NCBI GenBank assembly: GCA_010206265.1
Contig: VIQV01000023.1
Coordinates: 62,001-126,000, forward strand
DNA: 64,000 nucleotides
From: Lachnospiraceae bacterium MD329
GTDB taxonomy: Bacteria > Bacillota > Clostridia > UBA1381
Direction of reading: 5' to 3'
The notes under the pieces: generated by a model
The model's database searches: none
Seen by the model: the letters and a program-made list of their open reading frames with translations, nothing else
Told to the model about the DNA's origin: nothing
Position numbers and translations under genes: made by a program
In this document: in pieces, positions 35,569 to 36,788 of the stretch
Layout: every line of letters starts with the position of its first letter
Position numbering within the stretch: position 1 is the first letter of the stretch

Positions 35569-36366
35569 ATGGAAAACTTATGGGGAAAGGTTATACCGTA
35601 TTGGAATGACGAATTTATTGAGAGCGAGGAAACAGCACCGAGAATACCGACTATTACAGCCTATCCGTCGAATTCGCGCGGAGCAGTTGTTGTGTTCGCA
35701 GGCGGCGGCTATGTAATGCGCGCTGAACATGAGGGCGACGGTTACGCAAAATGGCTGCAGGAAATAGGTATAACAGCTTTTTTAGTAGATTATCGAGTTG
35801 CGCCGTATAAGCACCCCGCCCAAATCAGCGACGCTATGCGTGCAGTTCGTTATGTAAGACATTATGCTGATAAATACGGTTATGATAAGGATAAAATAGC
35901 AGTAATGGGTTCAAGCGCCGGCGGTCATCTGGCAGGCTCAGTATCAGTACACTTTGATAAGAAAATGTATGATGAAACAGATGAAATTGATAAAGAAGAT
36001 TGCCGTCCAAATGCGTCTGTTTTATGTTATCCTGTAATTGATATGTTTGAATACCGTCACGACGGTTCACGTCAGAACTTGCTCGGTGAACGTACTTTGC
36101 ACGAAATGAAAGAGCTTATGTCCTTATATAAGCACGTTTCATATGATACACCTCCTGCATTTATCTGGCATACTTCTTCAGATCAGGCAGTACCGACAGA
36201 AAATTCTCTTTTATATGCCGACGCGCTGTCCAAAAAACAAATACCGTATGAGTTGCATATTTACCCGTATGGGCGTCACGGTCTTGGACTTGCTGAGGAA
36301 ATGCCTCACGTTGCGCAGTGGACAAAATCACTTGAAAACTGGCTTATTTTAATGGGTTGGAAATAA
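35569..36366 (+). CDS. Alpha/beta-hydrolase, acetyl-xylan-esterase-like
   Basis: A 265-residue cytosolic hydrolase without signal peptide. The oxyanion region is VVVFAGGGYVMRAEHEG near residue 41, the nucleophile is in MGSSAGGHLAG near 123, the acid aspartate fits HTSSDQAVPTENS near 205 and the catalytic histidine is in YGRHGLGLAEE near 228. Such enzymes often deacetylate sugars or xylan fragments; the substrate here is unknown. GGGAGG precedes the ATG, 16 nt after the DUF4340-like gene, so it is probably the last gene of the Gld-type operon. Confidence 0.88.
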   Translation: MENLWGKVIPYWNDEFIESEETAPRIPTITAYPSNSRGAVVVFAGGGYVMRAEHEGDGYAKWLQEIGITAFLVDYRVAPYKHPAQISDAMRAVRYVRHYADKYGYDKDKIAVMGSSAGGHLAGSVSVHFDKKMYDETDEIDKEDCRPNASVLCYPVIDMFEYRHDGSRQNLLGERTLHEMKELMSLYKHVSYDTPPAFIWHTSSDQAVPTENSLLYADALSKKQIPYELHIYPYGRHGLGLAEEMPHVAQWTKSLENWLILMGWK

Positions 36367-36374
36367 ATAGCATA

Positions 36375-36403
36375 CAAAAACGGCATATATTATGCCGTTT
36401 TTG
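36375..36403. terminator. Bidirectional terminator between the esterase gene and spoVM
   Basis: A perfect 13-bp stem (CAAAAACGGCATA with TATGCCGTTTTTG) and a 3-nt loop. A- and T-runs lie on both arms, so it can serve the rightward esterase operon and the leftward spoVM pair. Confidence 0.9.
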
Positions 36404-36406
36404 CTT

Positions 36407-36475
36407 TTACATTTTAAACATTGTCTTTACGATACCTCTGAGCATTTTGGGGACTTTAAGAACTACGATTTTCAT
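36407..36475 (-). CDS. spoVM: Stage V sporulation protein SpoVM
   Basis: A 22-residue peptide, MKIVVLKVPKMLRGIVKTMF plus two residues. SpoVM is an amphipathic helix that recognises the convex outer forespore membrane and anchors the SpoIVA coat base. Compared with the 26-residue Bacillus subtilis peptide it keeps M1, K2, K7, P9, K10, L12, G14, I15, V16 and M19; P9 is the residue important for curvature recognition. Basic residues line one face of the helix. AAAGGAG lies about 9 nt upstream of the ATG. It is the second gene of a leftward pair and ends 4 nt from a terminator. It is too short for most gene finders. Confidence 0.92.
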   Translation of the reverse strand: MKIVVLKVPKMLRGIVKTMFKM

Positions 36476-36498
36476 AATAAAATTACTCCTTTCTATTC

Positions 36499-36663
36499 TT
36501 ACCACTTGAATAAACACAGATATCCCAAGAGGATAAGCATCAGCATCTCAACTACGGCGACTACCGCGATGGGCAAAAATGCACCTGCAAGAACGCCCAG
36601 ACAAAACGAAAGTGACGCCAGCCCGACTGCTTTTGAGCACCCTCTCATACAGAAATTAAGCAT
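36499..36663 (-). CDS. 54-residue membrane protein paired with spoVM (unknown)
   Basis: A small open frame of 54 residues starting MLNFCMRGCSKAVGLASLSF and ending in CLFKW. A hydrophobic span (about residues 13-37) rich in A, G, V and L is followed by a second (about 39-51), so it probably makes two membrane helices or one hairpin. A CMRGC cysteine pair lies near the N-terminus. A perfect AGGAGG is found 15 nt upstream of the ATG, rather far. spoVM starts 24 nt downstream of the stop. I do not recognise a family. Context suggests a sporulation membrane protein; this is inference. Confidence 0.7.
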   Translation of the reverse strand: MLNFCMRGCSKAVGLASLSFCLGVLAGAFLPIAVVAVVEMLMLILLGYLCLFKW

Positions 36664-36725
36664 TTTAATATTAACAAACCTCCTTCTATAAGTATCGTCG
36701 ACGCTGCGGGTTCTTTGTTTTAATA

Positions 36726-36734
36726 TATAGTATG
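36726..36734 (-). promoter_or_regulatory. Candidate mother-cell sigma -10 element (CATACTATA) for the spoVM pair
   Basis: On the minus strand CATACTATA fits CATAnnnTA (sigma-K) and seven of eight positions of CATACAnT (sigma-E). An AC dinucleotide is 16 bp upstream. The implied +1 near 36721 gives a leader of about 58 nt before the 54-residue gene. The same nine bases occur before yunB. Confidence 0.55.
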
Positions 36735-36788
36735 CAAACCCTTAAAAGGTGTGATTAAGTTAGGGAATTTATTTTGATTTAAACGTAC

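Follow-up and report, generated by a model that had tools for sequence, protein, structure and literature searches.

A small protein family of spore formers, predicted to form a membrane hairpin and encoded as the first gene of the spoVM operon

The window, the whole 64,000-nucleotide stretch of DNA that was analysed, carries at positions 36407-36734 two small frames on the minus strand, a 54-codon frame followed after a gap of 23 nt by a 22-codon spoVM frame (Table 1). The ribosome sites, shared terminator and upstream CATACTATA element that had been claimed for these frames in a preliminary description are all present. The site AGAAAGGAG stands 10 nt from the spoVM start, a good spacing, and AGAAGGAGG stands 15 nt from the ATG of the 54-aa gene, a distance longer than usual. 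The flanking nfeD, SPFH and esterase genes were considered as part of the unit and rejected, being present in 12, 10 and 6, respectively, of 30 loci (the window counted) from the window's bacterial family. A copy of some 53 bases of the operon's terminator region (36357-36409), 80% identical, lies elsewhere in the genome (L002 1501-1555, G000:C56).

Table 1. Features of the spoVM operon and its surroundings in the window
Feature	Position	Strand	Basis
54-aa CDS, predicted two-helix membrane hairpin protein	36499..36663	-	homologues, selection, AlphaFold2 model
SpoVM CDS, 22 aa	36407..36475	-	SpoVM profile, conserved residues
Likely ribosome binding site of the 54-aa gene, AGAAGGAGG	36679..36687	-	sequence
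spoVM ribosome binding site, AGAAAGGAG, within the 23-nt gap	36486..36494	-	sequence
-10-like element CATACTATA, resembling the mother-cell (sigmaK/sigmaE) type	36726..36734	-	motif statistics; sigma-factor consensus
-35-like element TCACACC, recurring here in loci of the window's bacterial family	36748..36754	-	motif statistics; sigma-factor consensus
Intrinsic terminator hairpin, usable on both strands	36374..36404	.	end of spoVM operon and of convergent esterase gene

The 22-aa frame scores 16.8 bits (E 0.0051) against the NCBIfam SpoVM model (NF033436), for which the cut-off is 31, and the 54-aa protein gave nothing above the curated cut-off in Pfam-A or NCBIfam and a best match at E 0.03 in PHROGs. 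Since neither scores above a curated cut-off alone, the case for both frames rests on their relatives. Members of a set of 21 SpoVM frames (A3, window included) all match the NCBIfam model at E<=0.1, the best at 3.4e-7, and in their alignment M1 and P9 are invariant and K10 and K17 nearly so. The genome of the window also encodes SpoIVA (E 1.2e-227).

Matches to the 54-aa frame were found in 58 of 70 genomes of the window's bacterial family, all at E<=2e-8; two of the 12 genomes that gave no match are good genomes. Among 30 homologues (the best 30 of the 58 matches, window included), pN was lower than pS in 435 of 435 pairs (median ratio 0.31); in two of these pairs the proteins are identical, and their genes show 8 and 15 silent changes and no replacement. 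Across the 54 codons, 13 first, 21 second and two third positions are invariant. Loss of conservation or frameshifting in relatives that keep spoVM, named beforehand as the outcome that would speak against the frame, did not occur: 24 of 26 good genomes carry the protein, and there are no internal stops among the 30 homologues. The 54-aa frame is thus a real gene under purifying selection. On the plus strand, a 99-codon open frame (36392-36691) runs antisense to both operon genes; over the 54-aa gene it is stop-free in just 22 of the 30 homologues, and is therefore best regarded as a by-product of the coding sequence opposite.

Conserved linkage to spoVM, the synteny by which the preliminary description had proposed to judge the frame, was evident in all 50 loci first examined. 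In the window's bacterial family SpoVM lies 12-43 nt downstream of the 54-aa gene in 30/30 loci, again the top-scoring 30 of the 58 matches; at 20/20 further loci, four of them from the same bacterial family, the distance is 4-103 nt. The description of a spoVM micro-operon in which a membrane protein is the partner is upheld, and the partner is conserved. A sample of 391 genomes of the class was then searched with a profile of 31 sequences (A2) and with a SpoVM profile, using the 88 A2 matches at E<=0.01 (weaker ones, up to 0.1, were left out) and comparing the SpoVM places of 150 of the 200 genomes with a SpoVM match. Among the matches listed, 59 of the 88 lie 7-109 nt upstream of SpoVM, including all 39 at E<=1e-10; two, with E above 0.001, have SpoVM elsewhere, and 27 have no listed SpoVM. 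When these 27 were read by eye, 21 proved to be followed directly by a SpoVM-like frame; the six that were not all belong to a clade designated f23.

With an iterated profile, a diverged copy of the upstream gene was recovered in 35 of 91 further genomes with a listed SpoVM, including every such genome of families f19 (12/12), f60 (10/10) and f40 (3/3). By the same profile no copy was found at the SpoVM loci of f10 (0/18), f28 (0/7), f56 (0/5), f62 (0/5), f17 (0/4) and f32 (0/4), and because it is absent at whole groups of SpoVM loci, the protein is either dispensable in some lineages or changed there beyond recognition. What stands 17-26 nt upstream of SpoVM in f62 (L186, L191, L197) is another small hydrophobic frame, 56-63 codons long, with neither the proline turn described below nor a profile match, and in f56 (L157, L172, L182) an 87-residue hydrophobic frame occupies the gene's place 86-114 nt upstream of SpoVM.

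The widest profile (A4, 59 sequences) was run on 80 genomes of the class chosen to span families, from 136 considered, and gave 29 matches at E<=0.01: 18 with SpoVM downstream, five from f23 without it, and six with no SpoVM beside them that were not counted as members (G396, G135, G327, G102, G205, G152). SpoVM downstream was judged by eye, from motif and position, in these 18 loci as in the 21 above. The pair, with the 54-aa-type gene directly upstream of SpoVM, is thereby found in at least 133 of the 391 genomes. SpoIVA is present in 123 of these 133; the other ten gave no SpoIVA match, and some of them are >90% complete. A phylum sample of 149 genomes, at least four of which (the window's own included) come from the class itself, gave A4 matches at E<=0.001 in 14 genomes from outside it. 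In eight of these a SpoVM-like frame follows; the remaining matches (G527, G571, G599, G603, G560, G597) were not counted as members. In family f150 (L324/G549, L326/G584), thiN and the hairpin gene are followed by a 30-residue SpoVM-like frame with an N-terminal extension, and the hairpin gene may be a signpost to strongly diverged SpoVM frames such as this one. Altogether, the protein family to which the first gene of the spoVM operon belongs is real, widespread among spore formers and as yet uncharacterised.

Proteins of the family are about 47-64 residues long, with start codons as chosen by us, and share a layout of a basic, often cysteine-bearing start, a helix with G23, a turn at P31 and a second helix with G47. 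P31 is kept in 59/59 A4 members, and at least 90% of them keep G23 and G47. All 31 A2 members have E39, a position at which many distant members carry another residue. Distant A4 members are 17-42% identical to the window protein. AlphaFold2 run on A4 gave helices at 5-27 and 32-53 with a mean pLDDT of 76.8 and a pTM of 0.46, pLDDT 90 being reached at no residue, and on this model the 54-aa protein is predicted to be a two-helix membrane hairpin. Comparison of A4 with the PDB by sequence gave no relative at E<=1, and the matches of its 59 members to Pfam and NCBIfam are scattered, the best at E 4.7e-5, with at most two members per family. YtaF, the cytochrome oxidase small assembly protein (one member, E 4.7e-5), SepX/GlpR, DUF3784, DUF6249, TauE and DUF7670, each matched by at most 2/59, were rejected as identities and read as hydrophobic chance. 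The CMRGC cysteine pair, to which attention had been drawn at the outset, does not hold up as a functional motif: C5 is nearly invariant in the 30 members from the window's bacterial family, but C9 is A, S or another residue in many, and both positions vary in the wider protein family.

In Bacillus the gene order is thiN-spoVM-rpmB. Nearness of spoVM to rpmB is described as common in the available part of PMC5607322, and thiamin pyrophosphokinase (thiN) and ribosomal protein L28 (rpmB), as defined by Pfam, served as neighbour queries. An upstream thiN together with a convergent downstream rpmB was found at 34 loci in 32 genomes, 11 of them f23. Neither gene was found at the 30 loci of the window's bacterial family, within about 1.5 kb on each side (less in L016, L017, L018, L024 and L029). 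Because the pair is still together at loci that lack thiN and rpmB, we read it as having apparently moved as a unit in that bacterial family.

The f23 genomes present a different arrangement. In 11 of the 17 f23 genomes that bear SpoIVA, two hairpin genes stand in tandem with no SpoVM at the site, in the order thiN, hairpin A, hairpin B, rpmB, and SpoIVA is encoded in all 11. Copy A was found by script in ten genomes and by reading in the eleventh (L285); it passes the iterated profile in L118, L122, L125, L126 and L129, and was judged by resemblance elsewhere. The other six SpoIVA-bearing f23 genomes (G221, G305, G324, G359, G407, G457) gave no match at E<=0.01 to A2, the profile with which they were searched in place of the wider A4. 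No SpoVM frame was found between hairpin B and rpmB in f23, and a SpoVM search of 11 f23 genomes (ten with tandem hairpins, and G457) gave a best E of 0.186; the remaining tandem-hairpin genome, G424, has a SpoVM match at E 0.029 whose place is not listed. A very diverged SpoVM elsewhere in the f23 genomes is possible. As the f23 site holds hairpin genes but no SpoVM, the hairpin must have some job there besides SpoVM contact. Across the class, SpoIVA is encoded in 281 of 391 genomes, 147 of which show neither the linked pair nor this arrangement, many of them having been searched with profiles narrower than A4. It has been reported, in the portion of PMC3533761 that was accessible, that spoVM could not be found in several clostridia. 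In family f25 (L156), two hairpins precede a SpoVM. Two of the SpoVM-less species named in that report are presumably Lachnospiraceae, and f23 may, as a guess made on this ground, belong there as well.

Elements upstream of the operon were evaluated by motif counts. CATAN3TA occurs within 130 nt upstream in 26 of the 30 loci of the window's bacterial family, against 4.2 expected and at most 10 in 500 resamplings, and in 47 of 123 upstream regions of the wider protein family, against 11.4 expected. One of TCACA, GTAAC, GTCAC or ATAAC, a motif set chosen after the loci had been seen, precedes it by 10-24 nt in 24 of the 26, against 1.3 expected. The sigmaK consensus consists of AC followed by CATAnnnTA, which the promoter elements of the spoVM operon resemble, suggesting a mother-cell type. 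Upstream regions of spoIVA were judged in four genomes of the window's genus (L259-L262, of 20 retrieved), three of which have CATATACAT and one CATATAAAT, elements that we take to be nearer the sigmaE type. The promoter elements of spoIVA thus seem sigmaE-like and those of the spoVM operon (36726-36754) sigmaK-like, although the contrast is not clean, as L260 also contains CATATTATA; if true, SpoVM would be made later than SpoIVA in the clade of the window's genus. The C. difficile spoVM locus depends on sigmaE, as far as the available text of PMC5607322 describes it, so that clades may differ in the sigma factor used, or the sigmaK assignment made here may be in error.

The pairing of hairpin and spoVM in many different spore formers suggests a shared job in building the spore surface. 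It is proposed, with moderate confidence, that the hairpin is a membrane protein made in the mother cell and that it works at the outer forespore membrane, either together with SpoVM or next to it. This is the best explanation of the linkage, the changes of neighbours, the protein-level selection, the hairpin model, the promoter elements and the co-transcription of CD25622 of C. difficile, an uncharacterised 50-aa protein whose gene immediately precedes spoVM and is transcribed with it (PMC5607322, as partly available). A two-gene sporulation operon, hairpin gene first and spoVM second, would be transcribed in the mother cell, and the 54-residue product would form a membrane hairpin of helices at about 5-27 and 32-53, with the turn at P31 and both ends probably on the mother-cell side. 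The hairpin and SpoVM would be made together and would enter the outer forespore membrane. There the hairpin may help SpoVM, or work in parallel with it, in attaching to the forespore surface SpoIVA, the coat and, by way of the coat, the cortex, and it may contact SpoVM or SpoIVA.

Three facts speak most strongly against a role that depends purely on SpoVM: f23, the SpoVM-bearing families without hairpin, and the C. difficile mutant, which showed no additional phenotype. The first and the third lend weight to the possibility, less probable but to be taken seriously, that the hairpin, as a membrane protein of sporulation, has a separate task (in membrane shape, lipids or cortex precursor enzymes, for example) and shares just a promoter with spoVM: the 11 f23 genomes have tandem hairpins and SpoIVA with no SpoVM frame at the thiN-rpmB site, and a CD25622 insertion, polar on spoVM, produced a small heat-resistance defect that was the same as for a spoVM insertion alone, with no defect beyond spoVM loss, the authors concluding that CD25622 has little impact (PMC5607322, within the portion available). 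However, the pair stays together despite differing neighbours and across at least 133 genomes of the class, which is more than a shared promoter needs. A part in forespore membrane recognition, as suggested in the preliminary description, is conjecture in view of this single published mutant.

It is unlikely that the 54-aa frame is mainly a leader whose translation sets the level of spoVM by coupling, the peptide itself doing little. The short gaps (mostly <50 nt), the constant upstream position of the frame in the counted loci and the fast divergence between families, down to the 17-42% identity of distant A4 members, would all fit such a leader, but selection acts on the residues in every one of the 435 pairs, the proline turn is kept throughout 59 diverse members and the two glycines nearly so, spoVM has its own ribosome site, and in f23 hairpins occur where the site has no spoVM. 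It is highly improbable that the protein is a small membrane toxin from a type I toxin-antitoxin system, or a holin-like peptide, that happens to lie beside spoVM. Size and hydrophobicity alone agree with this, and against it stand the stable linkage to spoVM, the predominance of SpoIVA genomes (123/133), the weakness of second matches per genome (E 0.0067 or worse) and of the best PHROGs match.

The proposal that the hairpin works at the outer forespore membrane, together with SpoVM or next to it, may be extended, speculatively and with more doubt than conviction, from the tandem hairpins of f23: the hairpin would be an ancient second anchor of the coat base, and in f23, if it lacks SpoVM, tandem hairpins encoded at the thiN-rpmB site would take over the work of SpoVM and tie SpoIVA to the outer forespore membrane. 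If true, this would account for the way SpoIVA locates the forespore in those clostridia for which no SpoVM was found, and it might help to explain why SpoVM is largely dispensable in C. difficile, as it is according to the accessible part of PMC5607322. A family that travels with spoVM, and is paired where SpoVM is missing from the site, is in any case a concrete candidate for the attachment of SpoIVA and the coat in clostridia.

Three known systems invite comparison. SpoVM is one short amphipathic helix. The operon's second gene corresponds to it (NF033436), and the two genes go together, but the 54-aa protein has two long hydrophobic helices and no match to the SpoVM model. ShfA/YabQ of B. 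subtilis is a membrane protein that the mother cell produces and that travels to the forespore surface, as is proposed for the hairpin, but it is multi-pass (PMC13232292, in its available part); neither the window protein nor A4 matched a YabQ model in Pfam or NCBIfam. In literature drawn mostly from outside subscription journals and in part accessible only as extracts, CD25622 (PMC5607322) was the one spoVM-linked small protein found. Like the window protein, it is small and encoded directly upstream of spoVM on the same strand; it differs in length (50 against 54 aa) and in lying near rpmB, whereas the window protein has E39 and its operon stands away from rpmB. A small upstream protein, a SpoVM with Ile6 and a convergent rpmB are the features given for C. 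difficile in the available text of PMC5607322, and genome G382 (L294) combines a 50-aa member of the hairpin family, matching A4 at E 6.7e-6, with a SpoVM bearing Ile6 and a convergent rpmB. CD25622 is probably a relative of the window's 54-aa protein, a likeness drawn from its description and from G382 rather than from its own sequence. The partner of SpoVM, initially taken to be unrecognised, is without a Pfam or NCBIfam family but probably not wholly undescribed. CD25622 has been called unique to Peptostreptococcaceae (PMC5607322, as far as its accessible text goes); with G382 both showing the C. difficile features and matching A4, CD25622 is held to belong to a much wider family, and the restriction looks wrong, for the protein family spans the class and beyond.
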